Shown here piece by piece: positions 19,066-59,829 of a stretch of 64,000 nucleotides of DNA. Every line of letters starts with the position of its first letter. Within the stretch, counting starts at the first letter, position 1. Source of the DNA: Blepharisma japonicum (Eukaryota; Ciliophora; Heterotrichea; Heterotrichida; Blepharismidae). A program made the translations under genes and the position numbers. The DNA is taken from assembly GCA_949751835.1 (NCBI GenBank), contig CATKHK010000100.1, positions 85,277 through 149,276 on the forward strand, in the 5' to 3' direction. A model generated the notes under the pieces. The model was not told the DNA's origin. It ran no database searches and saw only the letters and a program-made list of their open reading frames with translations.

Positions 19066-19589
19066 CTTTGGCACAACTGTAAGGCAATTATCTGAGATGA
19101 AGGGTTTAGTTTAATAACTATATTTATAAATTAAATTAACTCACATAAGATAAAACAATCTAAATTAGGGAATTAATGAATAAATGTATTTACTTCTTGT
19201 TTTACACATAAATCTAGTGTTTAAATGAAAATTCAAGCTTAATATAATTGAATACGCTTAGATAATATGCTTGATGCTTTTGATTTTTTTCCAAACTTTG
19301 GTTTTTAGTGTCATAAATAGTCAATATGATTCCCTCATTATACTAATAAGATAAAGAGGTATTGTTAATGGTAAACCTCGGAATATTCTTGTTAACCCGG
19401 CTTAGCTGCTGATCAGAAGTAGAGTTTTGTCTCTCATAAAAAAGCAAACCCTTCATTCTCCTCTTTTTCTGGATCAAAGCAGTGGCTTTTTCACACCTCA
19501 AAACAAAACTGTTTGGCTTTTAATTATTTTTAATTCTATAAAATATATCAAATCTTTTGAGCTTAGTTAATATATATTATTATAAAGGA

Positions 19590-20430
19590 ACGACCTCGAA
19601 TTTTAATGCTCTCCATTGAATAATACCTTCTTCTTTAAAAATCGTAAAGCATTGCGTTTTTGTCTCTCCTCTTCCAGTTTTCTTTTCTCTTGAAGTTGTT
19701 AAGCCATTGAATTTTCATTTTGCCATGTAAAAGCCACATATATCATATTCAATGGCAGCTCTGCAATTTCCATAGGGCAATGAGGATCCAATGAGTTCAT
19801 TGTAAATACTCCAAAGCCCATAGAGTCTACAACAAATTCATTGTAAGCTACACAATTAATATTTTTGCATATCCCAATAAAAGAAATTCCTTTTTGAGCA
19901 AATCTCATTTAAAAGGATTTTCACTGAATTGAATCTCTATTTTATTGTCCAAATTATTAAAAGCAAGCATAGGATACAAGCTTCCATAGTTTGCTGAAAT
20001 TTGTGTATAACAATTGTACTTCCAGCGCGTATACCTCAATTCGAACTCGGCTATTTCTTTTATCTCAACATATATTCTTTGTGTCAAATGATAGCATTAT
20101 TTCATCTTCTCCACATTCAATGAGTTCAGATGCCAAGCCCATGAGCTGCCCAATAGATCAATATAGACTTATCTTCATTGGAAATTGGTTATACGATTCA
20201 TTTTGAAAAATAATATCAATAATAGGGCTTTCAATACCAAAATAGGGCTTTTCTAACAATTGTATTGAAAACGATATCACATCATTTTCATGACTATGAT
20301 CTGAAATTCTAAATAAAGATAAATCCGATCAGTGTTCACAAGTAAAATCATAACTCTTATCACCCATTTCTGAATTTTCATTAAGTGCTCTTCTGATTTT
20401 GCTCACTTCAGAATCTGATGAAAAATATAA
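19590..20430 (-). pseudogene. Broken copy of the three-Ubl/Cys-module gene
   Basis: It aligns with the intact gene at 58693-59829 over about 830 bases. The Cys module (CKNINCVAYNEF, DPHCPME) and Ubl parts are recognisable, but single-base losses near 19769 and 19911 shift the frame. The 5' end is missing, replaced at about 20430-20460 by the B-box fragment. The flanking DNA from about 19145 also matches 58270 onward, so this is one duplicated segment in direct orientation. Confidence 0.85.
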
Positions 20431-20449
20431 TCGATTAAATCAAAATAAA

Positions 20450-20637
20450 ATTAAGTTACTTTTAAGCAAAAAATAATAAATGAAGAGTGGCTCTAAAAAT
20501 ATTAAGTTAAAAGTATGAGTCCTACTGCTCGATCTATGATGCTTTGATAAGTGTTTACTGCACGAATAAGTTTCAGGAGAGCATGAGTATTCAGCTTCAC
20601 TCTGACAACTTTGCTTAAAGCATCGCATGATGTTCAT
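20450..20637 (-). pseudogene. B-box N-terminal fragment of the TPR gene
   Basis: About 45 codons (MNIMRCFKQSCQSEAEYSC..., SKHLSKHHRSSSRTHTFN) are near-identical to the start of the TPR gene at 44635-46092. They lack the four residues CNCS-S of its Cys cluster and break off after IFLEP. The leader of that gene (46093-46250) is also duplicated here, at 20638-20900. Confidence 0.85.
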
Positions 20638-21060
20638 ACTATCTATAATTTTAATTGCCTTTAATTTATTAAATTGATATTAACTTTGATGTATTTTTTA
20701 ATGATTCGTAAATTTCCTAAGAGAAAAACTTAATCACAAGGTGGCTTTGCCTTATGGTTCAGGATTTAGTAGCAAGAATTGGATGATATAAAGAATCTGA
20801 TAAAGAAAAGATCTTAAGCAAAAGGGAAATGATATCAAAGAATTTGATAAAATCATCTGGGCGATACTCACATGATGGGCTTCAATTGAGGAGAAAGGGT
20901 ACTGGAAATGGAATTTGCAGTCATTTTTTATTTAAGTTGCTAATCTGTTTTCATTTTATAATTATTTTATTCATATATCAGAAATTTGTTAACTTACACT
21001 ATATTGCAATTAATTTAATAGCTAGATAAATAAAATTAACTGAGCATTAGCATCATCAGT
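20638..21060. other. Duplicated leader sequence, no gene
   Basis: The first roughly 250 bases match the region upstream of the TPR gene at 46093. The rest is AT-rich and shares about 100 bases (TTGCTAATCTGTTTTCAT...) with the areas at 39640 and 52270 that precede module S copies C and D. Confidence 0.6.
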
Positions 21061-25899: not shown

Positions 25900-26790
25900 T
25901 TAGTCATAATGCCATACTTGAAATCTTAAATCTCTCCATATAATGTTATCTCCATCTTTAAAAGTTGTAAAAACGTCATCACGAGCTCGTCCTTCGCCTT
26001 GAATTTTTTCTAAATCTTCTTTCACACCAACAAATTTTCATTTCACACCATAAAACCCACAATTTTCTGAAATAATATTCTTTTTGCAATCTTTCATAGG
26101 GCACTGAGCAATAAATTTACTCATAGTAAACAATCCTACTCCATGGCAACTAATAACTTCTCGATTATAAGCTCTGCAATTCTCATTTGTGCATCGACCT
26201 AAAAAGCAGATGCCTTTAGAGACTCTTCTCCACTCAGGAGCAAATACACTGAATTCAAGTTCTATTTGGTTTGTCAACTTATTAAAATTTATTGGTAACG
26301 TACCCGGTCCTCCTCCTCCTGGCGCAGACTCAGCCAACTCAAGTCAAGAGCTATTTTTAATACCATAAGATTTAAGAGTTCTTTCATCCTCTTTTATATA
26401 TTCGCTATTAGAAAATAATCTCTGCTCTCTCAATGGAATGAAAAATTTATCACGTAAAATCTTCTTTAGATCTCCGATGGTCATTTCATCCGAGATCTCT
26501 ATTGTTATTGTTTCTTCTTCATATTTAACCAAAAAACGAATAGGTTGTGCCCCAGCAAAAATAGCTGGCGATTCATACTCTTTTTCTACAAGTTGTAGAG
26601 GCTCTAGTAAATCCATCTCGATTGTATTATATTCCCATACTTCCTTACCTTGGTAGTAATAAGCTTGACGAGATGATACGATACCAGATATTTCTTCAAC
26701 CATGCCTTTTATAGAGTCGACTGAGCCATATGTTTCCGAAACATTGATGACATAATCATCATAAATCGATGAAATGCAAAGCATTTCCAT
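25900..26790 (-). CDS. Ubl-Ubl-Cys-module protein
   Basis: A 296-residue protein with TGA=Trp at 26344 and 26038 among others. Residues 1-75 form a ubiquitin-like fold pattern ([39 protein letters not shown]). Residues of about 80-150 form a second (TIEISDEMTIGDLKKILRDK, ERTLKSYGI). A Gly-rich link (APGGGGPGT) follows. The C-terminal module of about 130 residues has CTNENC, a CPMKDC pair, CGFY, then W-KFVG and FTTFKDGDNIIWRDLRF. The two C-x4-C pairs look like a zinc site. Function is unknown. The fusion recalls ubiquitin-protein fusions that are cut after Gly-Gly, but here the Gly stretch is not a clean LRGG. Confidence 0.85.
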
Positions 26791-28569: not shown

Positions 28570-29469
28570 TTAGTCATAACGCCATACTTGAAATCTTAAA
28601 TCTCTTCATATGATGTTATCTCCATCTTTAAAAGTTGTAAAAGCGCCATCACGAGCTCGTCCTTCGCCTTTAAATTCATCTTCATTTTCTGTCAAACCAT
28701 TAAATTTTCAGTTCGCGCCATAAAATCCACAATTTTCTGGAATAATCTTCTTTTTGCAATCTTCCATAGGGCAGCGAGCAATAAATTTACTCATAACAAT
28801 CACTCCTTCTTTACAGCTACTAACAACTTCCTGATTATAAGCTCTACAGTTCTCATTTGTGCATCGACCAAAAAAGCAGATGCCTTTAGAGATATTTCTC
28901 CATTGGGGAGCAGTTCTCCTAAATTCAATTTTTATTTCTATTTGGTTTTTCAAGTCATTAAACTTTATTGGTAAAATATTATACGTACCCGCTATTCCCC
29001 CTCGCATTCTCTTAGCCAATTGAAGTTTATAGTTATTTTGAATACCATAAGATTTAAGAGTTCTTTCATCTCTTATTAATTCGCCCGCATATAATAATAT
29101 CTGCTCTCGTAATGGCATGAAAACTTTATCACGTAAAATCTTCTTTAGATCTCCAATTGTCATTTCATCCGAGACATTTATTTTTAGTTTTTTGCCTTCA
29201 GTTTCAACAAAAATATTAAAAAATTGTGCCCCAGCAAAAAATACTGGCAATTCATACTCTTTTTCTACAAGCTGAAGAGGCTCTAGTAAATCCATCTCTA
29301 TTGCATTATATTCCCACACTTCCTTACCTTGGTAGTAATAAGCTTGCCGAGATGATGCGATACCAGATATTTCCTCAACCATGCCTTTTATAGAGTCGAC
29401 TGAGCCAGATGTTTCCGGAACATTGATGACATAATCATCATAAATCGATGTAATGCAAAGCATTGCCAT
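28570..29469 (-). CDS. Ubl-Ubl-GG-Cys-module protein
   Basis: A 299-residue paralogue of the gene at 25900. Ubl 1 covers about 1-75 and Ubl 2 about 80-155, ending in RMRGG, followed by IAGTYNILPIKFNDL and the Cys module. The module has CTNENC, RCPMEDC, PENCGFY, WKFNG and FTTFKDGDNIIW. TGA=Trp codons at 28708 and 28606 carry the module to its true TAA at 28570. The Gly-Gly at the end of Ubl 2 sits where ubiquitin precursors are cut by deubiquitinases, so release of the Cys module is possible. No active site is present, so binding or modifier roles are more likely than catalysis. The start ATG (MAMLCITSIYDDY) is conserved in three copies. Confidence 0.87.
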
Positions 29470-30899: not shown

Positions 30900-31300
30900 T
30901 TAAGGTTTGTAATTAATCACTTCAAATCTTAATTCTCTCCACAGGGTGTTTTCTCCATCTTTAAAAGTTGTAAACGTAGAATGTCCCGACTTTCCTTGGC
31001 CTTCTTTTCATTCTCTCTTGTTTGTTCTGCCTCTAAATTTTCAGACCGCAAGATAAAACCCGCAATTATCAGGCTCAATTTCTTGCTTGCAATTCTCCAT
31101 AGGGCAGCATGGCTCTATCGCACCCAAAGAAAATACTCCATATCCTAGGCAAGAAACAACAGAGCTATTATAAGCTGCACAATTCCTATTTTTGCATAAG
31201 CCAATAAAGCAGATGCCTGGATAGACAGTTCTTCATAGAGGAGCAGAACTACTAAAATTCAATTCAATTTTATTTCCTGTTTGAAAGGAATTTTTTCCCT
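30900..31300 (-). pseudogene. Orphan Cys module of the Ubl family
   Basis: About 125 codons read cleanly with TGA=Trp: LCKNRNC, CCPMENCKQEIEPDNCGFY, WKFRGRTN, FTTFKDGENTLWRELRFEV, stop TAA at 30900. The two ubiquitin-like domains are absent upstream, and the similarity ends near NKIELNF. Either a 5'-truncated pseudogene or a stand-alone module. No good start codon is seen. Confidence 0.65.
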
Positions 31301-31319
31301 TTCTAATTTCAGAAGCCTA

Positions 31320-32245: not shown

Positions 32246-33094
32246 TTATATTACTTGAAATTTTAATTCTCTCCATATGATACTATTTCCATCTTTAAAA
32301 GTTGTAAAACTGTCCCCAAGAGCATCTCCTTTGCCTGATATTCATTCTCTATTGTCTGTCAAACCTCTAAATTGTCAACATGCCTTATAGAACCCACAAT
32401 TTTCTGGATCAATATTCATTTTGCAATCTTTCATAGGGCAATAAGCGATAACTGAACTCATAGAAAATACCCCTTTTCCAAGGCAGCTAATAACTTTTTT
32501 ACGATAAGCCGCACAATTCCGATTTTTACATCGGCCAATAAATGAGATCCCTGGGGAGACAATTCTCCATGGAGGAGCAGTTTTGCTAAATTTAATTTCT
32601 TCTCGATTTCTCAAGTCATTAAAGTTTATTGTTGGCATTCCCGGTCAATCTCCTCCTCCTCTCAATCTAAGTACCAGATGAAGAGTAGAATCACTTGGAA
32701 TTCTATAATAATTAAAAGTTTTATCATCATCTAATTGTTTACCAGCAAAGATTAAGCGCTGCTGATCCAGAGGAATATCCTCTATATCCTTTATTTTTAT
32801 CTTTAGATTTTTAATGGTATCTTCCCTAGAGAGACAAGAAAAAGTAATTGTTTTCATCGTAAGAGTTTCTACAAAAATATGAAAAATTTGCACAAGCTGA
32901 AGAGGTTCTTGGAAATTCATCCTTATTGCATCATATTCTCTTACTTCCTTCCCTTGGTAATAATATCATTGCTCATTTGGTGAAATACCAGATATTTCTT
33001 CAACCTTATCTTTTATAGTTTCCAAGTCGCCAGATGTTTGTGGAACATTGATGACATAATCGCCATAAATTGATGTAATGCTAAGTATTTCCAT
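32246..33094 (-). CDS. Ubl-ubiquitin-GG-Cys-module protein (most ubiquitin-like copy)
   Basis: A 282-residue member whose second domain is close to real ubiquitin: [46 protein letters not shown], followed at once by [14 protein letters not shown] and the Cys module (CKNRNC, YCPMKDC, NCGFY). The first domain ([14 protein letters not shown]...) is the divergent Ubl common to the family. TGA=Trp at 32965, 32645, 32375 and 32343. The complete LRLRGG at an internal position makes cleavage by a ubiquitin hydrolase likely, as in ubiquitin-ribosomal protein fusions. This is inference. It pairs with the intact PAP2 gene downstream. Confidence 0.88.
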
Positions 33095-44634: not shown

Positions 44635-46092
44635 CTAAGCTTCTTCTCTCCTGTTTAATGCTTCAAGAGCGTTTTCTTTATTTCTAGGGTAAACTGCTGA
44701 ATTTGGATTTATTCTAATTGCAATGCTATAATATACTACTGCTTCATCATATTTCTTTTTATCGTAAAAGATATCTCCTATGTCGCTGTATGCTGCATCA
44801 AACTCTTTATCAATTCTTACAGCCTCTCGAAAGCATTCCAAAGCTTCTTCTTTTCTATTTAAAGCATAAAAAGCATTTCCTTTATTTCTATAATAAATTG
44901 CTAAATTTGGATTGATTCTGATTGCATCGCTATAATATTTTATTGCTTCTTCATAACTCTTTTCATTATATAAGATAATTCCTATGCCATTATATGCGTA
45001 ATCTTCATGTGGATCAACTTTAATAGCTTCTTTATAGCATTCCATAGATTCTTCTCTTCTGCTTAAATCATAAAGAGCATTTCCTTTATTGTTATAGTAA
45101 ATTGCTGATTTTGGATCGATTTTGATTGCAATACTATAATATTCTAGTGCTTTTTCGTATTTCTTTTTGTCGTAAAAAATATCTCCAATATCACTACAAG
45201 CAGCATCATAGGTTGGATCAATTCTAAAAGCCTCTTCAAAGCATTCCATAGCTTCTTCTTTTCTATTTAAAAAATAAAGAGCATTTCCTTTACTTCTATA
45301 ATAGACTGCTTTATTTGGATTGACCCTAATTGCATCGTTGAAATATTTTATTGCTTCTTCATAACTCTTTTCATTATATAAGATAGTTCCTATTCCGTTG
45401 TATGCATTATCATTGCTTGGGTTTATTTTGATAGCTTCTTTATATTTGCTTAGGGCTTGGTCTTCACCTCTTTCTCTAATTTCAAGTGGCACAGTTTTAC
45501 CTGGCGATTCAAGATTTATTTTTATTTTAAAAGTATGCCTTGAGGGGATAAGGAGCTTTTCTTTATTAAACTTCTTTAATATTCTATCGATTTCAATGTT
45601 TATATGGCAGAGCATTTCTGCTTCATCTTTTATGTCTTTATTTGCTTGGAAAATTACTTTAGCTTTCTCAACGGCTTCATGGGGATCCAAACTCAATAAA
45701 TTTAAAACTGGATCATCTTCCAATTTCGAAAGTTTTTGCACTTGTCAAACCTTTTGGAAGTGGCCACTGAATTTTGTGGAGCCAAAGTCTATTTCTTTTA
45801 AAAGTTGTTTTAAAGTATTTTCATAATTGCAAAGAGTTTTGGCAAAAGAAGCTACGAGTTTGAATTTTATTGCATCATTTTTAGTCATTTCTTCTGCAAT
45901 ATATCTAAGAATTGATTCCTTTACTCCCTCAACTGGCTCTAAAAATATTGAGTTAAAAGTATGAGTCCTACTGCTCGATCTGTGATGCTTTGATAAGTGT
46001 TTACTGCACGAATAAGTTTCAGGAGATGAGCAATTGCATGAGTATTCAGCTTCACTCTGACAACTTGGCTTAAAGCATCGCATGATGTTCAT
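44635..46092 (-). CDS. B-box-like zinc and TPR-repeat protein
   Basis: A 485-residue protein, TGA=Trp at 45745, stop TAG. The N-terminus has CFKPSCQSEAEYSCNC and CSKHLSKHH, the same Cys/His cluster as in the kelch protein at 35297. A conserved helical linker (KLSKLEDDPVLNLLSL) follows. From about residue 205 there are eight TPR units of 34 residues (for example NAYNGIGTILYNEKSYEEAIKYF), the last one incomplete. The repeats form a four-TPR block that recurs almost exactly (AYNGIG.., KGNAL.., DIGDIFYDKKKY.., KGNAL..). TPRs bind peptides or chaperones. An adaptor role is inferred. Confidence 0.88.
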
Positions 46093-46745
46093 ATTATCTA
46101 TAATTTTAATTGTCTTTAATTTATTAAATTGAAATAACTTTGATATATTTCTTTAATGGTTCGTAAATTTCCTAAACAAAAGGGAAATGATGTCAAAGAA
46201 TTTGATAAAAACGTCTGAGCGATACTCATATGATGGGCTTCAATTGAGGAGGTACTGAAATGGAGTCTTGTCCAGATTCATTCAAACGTGATAACTGCTA
46301 AAAATAGAGATGAGAACGAAGATGAAAACTATGCATTTAATGGATTAATTGAAGATAAGAACAAGAAATGCGTACTCAAGAAAGTGAATAGGAAGTTGAT
46401 GGTTTACCTACAATGAGTCTTGAAGAGAGAAAAAAAATGGCGAAATGGCTGATGATGTATTGGGTGAAAGAGGAAATCATTTATTCTAGAACTGGTTACC
46501 TTAGGGAATGAATGCATTTAAATGCAGAAAAACTAGCAAAAGAGAAACAGTATTAAATGGTGTGGAATCTGTGTAAAAATTATGAAATAAGAAGTTATCA
46601 GTTCTTTGTTAGATATGTGGCCTTAAATTGGACACCTCATATCATATCATAAATGAATATATAAGGCATAAGTAGAAGGGCTACTTAATCCAGGGCTATA
46701 ACCGCGTTTGGCATTTATTCACTTTTTATTTAGCATCTAATACCC
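46093..46745. other. Possible degraded gene of unknown type
   Basis: The first roughly 160 bases are the TPR leader, duplicated at 20638. At about 46410-46555 a plus frame reads MSLEERKKMAKWLMMYWVK and continues through a TGA to about 47 codons before TAA. A TAG lies a few codons upstream. Coding-like, but not recognised and probably not functional. Confidence 0.3.
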
Positions 46746-56473: not shown

Positions 56474-57373
56474 TTAGTCATTACGTGTTACTTGAAATCT
56501 TAAATCTCTCCATATGATGTTATCTCCATCTTTAAAAGTTGTAAAAGCGTCATTACGAGCTTGTCCTTCGCCTTGAATTTTTTCTCAATTTTCTTTCACA
56601 CCAACAAATTTTCATTTTGCACCATAAAACCCACAATTTTCTGGAATAATATCCTTTTTGCAATCTTCCATAGGGCAACGAGCATGAAGTGTACTCATAA
56701 CAATCAATCCTACTCCATGGCAACTAATAACTTCTCGATTATAAGCTCTACAATTCTCATTTGTGCATCGACCTAAAAAGCAGATACCTTTAGAGACAAT
56801 TCTCCATTGAGGAGCAGTTTTACTAAGTTTTTTTTCTATTTTGTTTGTCAAGTCATTAAAATTTATTGGTAACATACTACATAAACTCGGTCCTCCCCCT
56901 TTCATTGTCACACCAATTGTAAGCTTAGAGCAATTTTCAATACCATAAGATTTAAGAGTTCTTTCATCTTCTTTTATAGTTCGATTATCACATATTAATA
57001 TCTGCTTTCGCAATGAAACGTAAGTTATATCACGTAAAATCTTCTTTAGATCTCTAACGGTCATTTCATCCGAGACTATTATTGCTTGTTCGTCGCCAGT
57101 AGGTTTAACAACAACAATTGAAATAAGCTGTGCCCTAGAAATATTAACTGGCGATTCATACTCTTTTTCTACAAGCTGAAGAGGCTCTAGGAAATCCATC
57201 TCTATTGCATTATATTTTGACACTTGCTTACCTTGGTAATAATAAGCTTGACGAGATGATTCGATACCAGATATTTCTTCAACCATCCCTTTTATAGAGT
57301 CGACTGTGCCAGATGTTTCCGAAACATTGATGACATAATCATCATAAATCGATGAAATGCAAAGCATTGCCAT
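56474..57373 (-). CDS. Ubl-Ubl-GG-Cys-module protein
   Basis: A 299-residue paralogue of the genes at 25900 and 28570, with the same start context (MAMLCISSIYDDY). Ubl 2 ends in a Gly run (MKGGGPS) before LPINFNDLTNKIE. The Cys module has CTNENC, RCPMEDC, PENCGFY and FTTFKDGDNIIWRDLRFQV, and TAA at 56474. TGA=Trp occurs at 56612 and 56585. The gene is intact, while the pseudogene upstream and the PAP2 gene downstream are lost, so the Ubl gene seems to be the part that is kept. Unknown function; a ubiquitin-like modifier or binding protein is likely. Confidence 0.87.
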
Positions 57374-58692: not shown

Positions 58693-59829
58693 TTATAGAG
58701 GAACAACCTCAATTTTTAATGCTCTCCATTGAATAATACCTTCTTCTTTAAAAATCGCAAAGCATTGGGTTTTTGTCTCTCCTCTTCCAGTTTTCTTTTC
58801 TCTTGAAGTTGTTAAGCCATTGAATTTTCACTTTGCCATGTAAAAGCCACATATATCATATTCAATGGCAGCTCTGCAATTTTCCATAGGGCAATGAGGA
58901 TCCAATGAGTTCATTGTAAATACTCCAAAGCCCATAGAGTCTACAACAAATTCATTATAAGCTACACAATTAATATTTTTGCATATCCCAATAAAAGAAA
59001 TTCCTTTTTGAGCAGATCTCCATTTAAAAGGATTTTCACTGAATTGAATCTCTATTTTATTGTCCAAATTATTAAAATCAAGCATAGGGATGCAAGCTTC
59101 CTTAAATTGCTGAAATTTGTGTATAGCAATTGTACTTCCATCACGTATACCTCAATTTCGAACTCGGCTATTTCTTTTATCTCAACATATATTCTTTGTA
59201 CCAAATGATAGCATTATTTCATCTTCTCCACATTCAATGAGTTCAGATGCCAAGCCCATTAACTGCCCAATAGATCAATATAGACTTATCTTCATTGGAA
59301 ATTGATTATACGATTCATTTTGAAAAATAATATCAACAATAGGGCTTTCAATACCAGAATAGGGCTTTTCTCACAATTGTATTGAAAACGATATCACATC
59401 ATTTTCATGACTATGATCAGAAATTCTAAATAAAGCTAAATCTGAGCAGTGCTCACAAGTAAAATCATAACTCTTATCACCCATTTCTGAATTTTCATTA
59501 AGTGCTCTTCTGACTTTGCTCACTTCAGAATCTGGCGAAAAATACCATGAAAATTCACGATTTTCTTGTTGTAAAATAACCTTAACTAAAACCTTCATTT
59601 CTACAAGCTGAAGAGGATTTCCTATATCCATAAAACTTGTATTGTAAAAACTATTATCGTGCAATTTATGATTTGAGTGGAAATAATGCTGAAAGTCTTC
59701 CTGGATTCCAGATTCTCTTGCTACTGCGTTTTTTATTGTGCTGATTGGACCAGTCTCACTTGGAACTTCAATTACATAGTCATTAGTTATCGATAAAATG
59801 CTAAGTGTCTTGCCATTTCTAAAATTCAT
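58693..59829 (-). CDS. Three-Ubl/Cys-module protein
   Basis: A 378-residue larger relative of the module U proteins, with several TGA=Trp codons (59371, 59275, 59178, 59151, 58828). Residues 1-85 are a divergent Ubl (ILSITNDYVIEVP, PLQLVEM). About 85-170 form a second, with an inserted CEHC. About 175-270 form a third (VDIIFQNESY, SIGQLMGLASELIE, DEIMLSFGTKNICWD, GIRDGSTIAIH). The C-terminal Cys module follows (CKNINCVAYNEF, HCPMENC, DICGFYMAKWKFNG). No Gly-Gly precedes the module, so this form should not be cleaved there. The start is placed at 59829 by alignment with the shorter paralogues, although the frame is open to 59931. Confidence 0.83.

Follow-up and report, generated by a model that had tools for sequence, protein, structure and literature searches.

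Protein D of Blepharisma japonicum carries two ubiquitin-like domains (Ubl1 and Ubl2) ahead of a Cys-rich module, and this order recurs in paralogues across the genome. We give a probability of roughly 0.5 to the reading that D is a member of an expanded, mostly uncleaved family in which two or three Ubls, serving as docking arms, are joined to the Cys module. The window analysed is the whole stretch of 64,000 nucleotides at C100:85277-149276, in an assembly of 45.2 Mb in 224 contigs, and its end is the contig end (149276). The gene of protein D is open only when TGA is translated as Trp (table 4), with four in-frame TGA codons at residues 43, 150, 240 and 251. Residue W240 lies in a Trp column that is invariant in the alignment of the six window relatives, which supports this code. 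Further repeated families lie at window positions 18120-63651, among them acidic SSDTDSSD proteins, and pepsin-like proteases and kelch-like or B-box-like proteins that were named by eye.

Table 1. Protein D, its parts and its paralogues in the window
Feature	Position in window	Strand	Remarks
Protein D, 282 aa (P0001)	32246..33094	minus	TGA = Trp
Ubl1 of D, divergent, residues 1-68	32891..33094	minus	pLDDT 78-85; di-ubiquitin/ISG15 structure matches, about 150 columns
Ubl2 of D, near-ubiquitin, residues 72-147	32654..32881	minus	PF00240 best stretch 73-145; ubiquitin identity 49/75 columns
LRLRGG of D's Ubl2	32671-32654	minus	
Cys module of D, residues 158-282	32249..32623	minus	Alignments with relatives; two C-x4-C pairs and CGFY
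Paralogue A, Ubl-Ubl-module, junction APGGGG	25900..26790	minus	
Paralogue B, Ubl-Ubl-module, junction RMRGG	28570..29469	minus	
Paralogue C, open frame is module only, upstream part not readable	30900..31316	minus	
Paralogue E, Ubl-Ubl-module, junction TMKGGG	56474..57373	minus	
Paralogue F, 378 aa from first Met, without GG ahead of module	58693..59829	minus	
Broken copy, Ubl and module pieces, in-frame TAA	25359..25774	minus	Decay or unrecognised intron
Broken module copy with TAA	55830..56057	minus	
Broken F-like module copy	19583..19961	minus	

The preliminary description had read in D a near-ubiquitin second domain ending in LRLRGG, a divergent Ubl ahead of it, and a following module, some 125 residues long and marked by two C-x4-C pairs and CGFY; all three were recovered. 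The ubiquitin family PF00240 matched the protein at 93.2 bits (E 8.6e-27) in two stretches, the best of which falls in Ubl2, and the identity in Table 1, which refers to human ubiquitin, includes two unchanged stretches of 12 residues each. Past LRLRGG, 135 residues of the chain remain. The C-x4-C pairs are C189/C194 and C219/C224, CGFY occupies residues 233-236, and the module holds seven Cys and zero His. It is probably metal-binding, the label 'zinc' deriving from Cys spacing only, with a poor structure model of the module.

Structure prediction of residues 1-282, as the preliminary description had suggested, delivered the tandem Ubl and left most of the Cys module below a pLDDT of 50. This AlphaFold2 model, computed on the six window relatives, gave pLDDT values per ten-residue block of 78-85 over residues 1-70 and of 82-90 over residues 71-140; the module modelled alone reached a mean of 38, too poor for a structure search. 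With the model of D, the best solved Foldseek matches were to linear di-ubiquitin (E 4.6e-15), with ISG15 from rank 33. Because the rmsd is high (5.5 to 13.7 in the rows listed, with ranges not printed), these matches speak for the fold of D and not for the relative arrangement of its two domains. In profile comparison, Ubl1 gave a weak second match to the ubiquitin profile (20.6%), and it ends without GG. Two adjacent Ubl folds, a feature of the ISG15 type, are thus predicted in D with fair confidence, while the module has no reliable model.

The module had been described as lacking a named family, and the profile searches agree: D's module had no Pfam match, and nothing in the family modules rose above any printed Pfam cut-off. 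NCBIfam, PADLOC and PDB sequence profiles gave no match that exceeded a printed cut-off or had a convincing E-value, and no known ubiquitin-system enzyme appeared above a printed cut-off in the C-terminal part. An alignment of modules from 15 of the 25 places shows nine invariant columns, which include both Cys of the first C-x4-C pair and a single Cys further on; the invariant Cys columns number five in the six window modules and three in the 15. The nearest Pfam score was for zf-4CXXC_R1 (PF10497), for which C85 reached 22.4 bits, under the cut-off of 22.7, and C128, its 82%-identical sister, 13.8 bits. Among the 15 modules only these two matched at E 1 or better, with none in C3, C63, C6 or the six window modules, and we treat this family as a lead for the module and not as membership. 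Tim29, at 19 bits against a cut-off of 25 and in C6 only, was set aside as an identity for the module, and RAG1, with E 0.3 in the PDB sequence profiles and 0.15 in Pfam, was not relied on. No RING profile was found with Pfam in the window and dispersed modules, and IBR_1 gave one match among the 15 (E 0.2). Viral and prokaryote contig collections yielded no confirmed relative of the module in scans seeded with short peptide patterns, by which distant relatives may be overlooked.

With the D, F, C78 and C85 modules as queries, protein searches located the module at nine places on C100 (A-F plus the three broken copies), all within the last 45 kb and inside the window. At least 16 more were found on other contigs by protein searches of the genome, for a total of at least 25, three broken; these counts are lower bounds that include C5 on one weak match (E 6.1e-4). 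The earlier statement that the Cys module is repeated in several genes is confirmed. Paralogue F has a longer N-terminal part with, by eye, about three Ubl-like stretches, and its PF00240 score of 20.7 bits lies under the cut-off of 25.4. A frame at window positions 19583-20679 has a beginning that resembles the Cys-rich N-terminus of the 44635-46152 protein, and it continues as a remnant of an F-like Ubl and module; by eye, we judge it to be a chimeric broken copy.

Ubl-class sequence followed by the module was found in five window genes and 11 dispersed ones. In Pfam scans of ten such proteins, the Ubl ahead of the module exceeded the cut-off in seven (A, B, D, E, C78, C70, C85) and gave a signal under it in F, C32 and C94. 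In profile comparison the three classes of the family join over Ubl2 and module at 97.0, 98.6 and 99.8%, joins that may be carried by the module rather than the Ubl. The Ubl class of C26a, C128, C3, C63, C34a and C27 was assigned through these joins and not by single Pfam scans. Against ubiquitin alone, the Met-Gly-Cys class scored 0.8% (E 0.068). The C78 class reached 93.1% against our 'ubiquitin' profile, a value that is not independent, as the profile held the Ubl2 of D, A and B and its matches to those are circular.

The module also appears in other company. Taking starts at the first Met of the open frame, 8 of 16 dispersed module proteins (L024, L025, L074-L078, L023) begin with Met-Gly and a Cys at position 3 or 4, which we take to be a possible lipid-anchor signal; part of the family probably sits at membranes. 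Two proteins, C34b and C95 (L026, L027), carry the Cys module behind an unrelated N-terminal part starting MEKTLLSKVG, and C6 has no Ubl by Pfam.

We compared the junction between Ubl and module in the 16 proteins with a readable Ubl-class stretch ahead of the module (A, B, D, E, F, C32, C70, C78, C26a, C128, C85, C3, C63, C94, C34a and C27); paralogue C, the three broken copies, C26b, C6, C34b, C95 and C5 were left out of this count. The motif LRLRGG occurs in one of the 16, D, the only member in which an intact ubiquitin C-terminal tail is followed by more chain. Any GG within 35 residues ahead of the module was seen in seven (A, B, D, E, C70, C78, C26a), and the junction is Gly-rich in some members, such as A and C78. 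The remaining nine have no GG there, including all seven members of the Met-Gly-Cys class with Ubl-class sequence ahead of the module. Conservation of Gly-Gly among paralogues, a feature of cleavable precursors, is thus absent from this family, which argues against a family of such precursors. The cleavable modifier-zinc protein system that had been proposed did not hold up as a system among the paralogues in D's own genome. Cleavage may still occur in D, the only one of the four proteins compared (A, B, D, E) to keep the ubiquitin face and tail. In-frame introns were rejected as the cause of the Ubl-module join: the intron-like GT...AG words in A and D measure 16 nt, a length whose removal would change the frame, and that in E falls in residues common to the paralogues.

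The recognition face sets D apart. We took 15 ubiquitin positions to be the recognition face and tail, and Ubl2 of D keeps 15/15 of them, though 25 of 74 aligned positions have changed (P 0.00086). When the tail positions are left out, 9/9 face positions are kept (P 0.019). B keeps 6/14, A 3/14 and E 3/15, no more than chance. K11, K27, K29 and K48 are also retained in D. Because the ubiquitin face is conserved anyway, these values indicate non-random retention in D and not function; D may still be bound as ubiquitin, or cut.

The closest relatives of D's Ubl2 in the whole genome are standard or near-standard ubiquitin units, at 66% identity. Of 17 Ubl2 positions that are changed both in D and in A/B/E, four carry the same residue (18S, 20E, 26L, 38L), so D probably has a common origin with these paralogues. 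The shared changes, and an identity to own-genome ubiquitin of just 66%, make it less likely that D recently received an inserted ubiquitin gene. The simplest history, judging from these comparisons, would be a ubiquitin-like ancestor kept by D and lost by its neighbours.

The three parts of the protein differ in how alike they are. Ubl1 (taken with the short spacer) is 83-89% identical in amino acids among A, B and E, Ubl2 51-59% and the module 70-79%, with dN/dS of 0.33-0.62, 1.36-1.93 and 0.97-1.01, respectively. For D against A, B or E the corresponding dN/dS values are 0.47-0.82, 0.67-1.02 and 0.70-0.99. The ratio of changes in Ubl1 versus Ubl2 gave Fisher p values of 0.024, 0.046 and 0.056 in three non-independent tests, and Ubl2 versus module showed no difference (p 0.80, 1.0 and 0.45). 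For the three-gene Ubl2 set, one codon model rejected an omega of 1 with a hand-calculated p of about 0.02 (2 x 2.73 log units), in a test where the parameter held in the fixed GY2K run is uncertain and the omega value was not printed. The rejection vanishes when D is added, and other codon models were weaker. We therefore do not advance positive selection on Ubl2 as a firm claim: it is model-dependent, lost with D, and Ubl2 does not differ from the module. The evidence for selection on Ubl2 among A, B and E is suggestive only.

Several known systems resemble D in part. Ubiquitin-ribosomal protein fusions (S27a, L40) join ubiquitin to a Cys-bearing partner, and phmmer matched D to such chains, but the matched stretches reach no further than query residue 155 in the 60 chains listed out of 398. 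D differs from these fusions in its extra Ubl ahead, its other partner module and a GG that is not conserved in its family; neither S27a nor L40 was found as its partner, the module having no Pfam match. Rad23-type integral Ubl proteins keep the Ubl as an uncleaved docking domain. The rad23 profile matched D weakly (28.9 bits against a cut-off of 207.3), and D has a Cys module instead, with no UBA match by Pfam. Ubiquitin-family proteins of other protists and of rotifers may have a similar Cys pattern. ISG15 and linear di-ubiquitin share the tandem Ubl fold with D, whose second Ubl ends in LRLRGG, whereas 15 of the 16 family members lack that motif; we know of no ISG15 followed by a 125-residue Cys module. 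In the titles and abstract openings listed, we found no description of D's Ubl-Ubl-Cys-module family. Background on ISG15 and ubiquitin fusions is treated in PMC11354881.

The closest precedent in print is in Bigelowiella natans, where a 273-residue protein joins two ubiquitins to a zinc RING finger; Guillardia theta has two zinc-RING-like ubiquitin fusions of 145 and 199 aa (PMC6332867). Like D, with its 282 aa, the Bigelowiella protein combines two ubiquitin units with a zinc module (zinc in D being read from Cys spacing only). Unlike D, it is said to contain complete ubiquitin monomers and a RING finger, a comparison made by description and not by sequence, and the account of the Bigelowiella and Guillardia fusions in that source mentions no expanded divergent family (PMC6332867). 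The earlier statement that no described family has exactly this order was too strong in view of the Bigelowiella fusion, although its module is matched to D's by description only.

We propose that the Ubls of this family act as built-in docking domains, which would take the place of ubiquitin in contacts with ubiquitin-binding partners. The Gly-rich stretch of some members could be a linker that gives flexibility, and the Cys module, which probably binds metal, might bind a target or hold the fold. In D, the second Ubl still carries the ubiquitin recognition face and tail, and of all members D is the likeliest for the cell to read as real ubiquitin; the neighbours A, B and E no longer have this face, and they resemble each other least in Ubl2. 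We see a real prospect, somewhat short of even, that D is also cut by a deubiquitinase after Gly147, in which case D itself would not fit the uncleaved reading. A fuller version, in which D is a processed precursor whose cleavage after Gly147 releases a conjugatable, ISG15-like Ubl1-Ubl2 ending in LRLRGG and a free Cys module, is unlikely. It is favoured by the Gly that follows LRLRGG, the complete face with its four lysines, the tandem-Ubl structure matches to ISG15 and the presence in the genome of the deubiquitinase families PF00443 (143 matches) and PF01088 (5 matches). The motif is confined to one of 16 members, however, Ubl1 of D lacks a terminal GG, and no relative shows a sign of the module as a leaving group. 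The PF00443 sequences include large arrays of USP-type sequences on contigs C107, C46 and C170, many with in-frame TAG, which may reflect short in-frame introns or decay. At C66:151090-158409 a USP-like sequence adjoins clustered, divergent units of ubiquitin, and three or more of these contain TAA or TAG.

The copies near the contig end could instead be mostly relaxed or decaying duplicates, with D resembling the ancestor through least change. The three broken copies, the dN/dS of 0.97-1.01 for the module among A, B and E and of 0.67-1.02 for Ubl2 of D against them, and the probable common origin of D with these paralogues are all consistent with decay. But A, B, D, E and F stay open over 282-378 codons, Ubl1 dN/dS is 0.33-0.62 among A, B and E, substitutions in D avoid the recognition face, and five Cys columns hold in all six window relatives, so that we consider decay improbable. 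Less probable again is an ISG15-like arms race in a protist, in which D would be a working cleavable modifier with a metal-binding leaving domain and the fast-changing Ubl2 of its neighbours a decoy or sensor against attackers of the ubiquitin system. Lowest of all we place the idea that the Cys module belongs among RING-like or other E3-type domains and the proteins are ligases with built-in ubiquitin-like arms, which we regard as very unlikely. A RING has eight ligands, more than the five or three invariant Cys of the module alignments, though D itself has seven Cys. No RING, IBR or other E3 family scored above a printed cut-off, the IBR_1 match being the single one already given. The paired Cys of the module favour this idea, as do the fusions to zinc RING and zinc-RING-like domains in Bigelowiella and Guillardia (PMC6332867).

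This genome offers a graded series. A single array shows a ubiquitin unit inside a protein from full likeness (D) to the loss of most of the face (A, B, E). Within one genome the Cys module is found both joined to Ubls and apart from them, and some of its proteins have a start that may be a lipid anchor while others lack it. Should D be cut, a protist would have an ISG15-like precursor.
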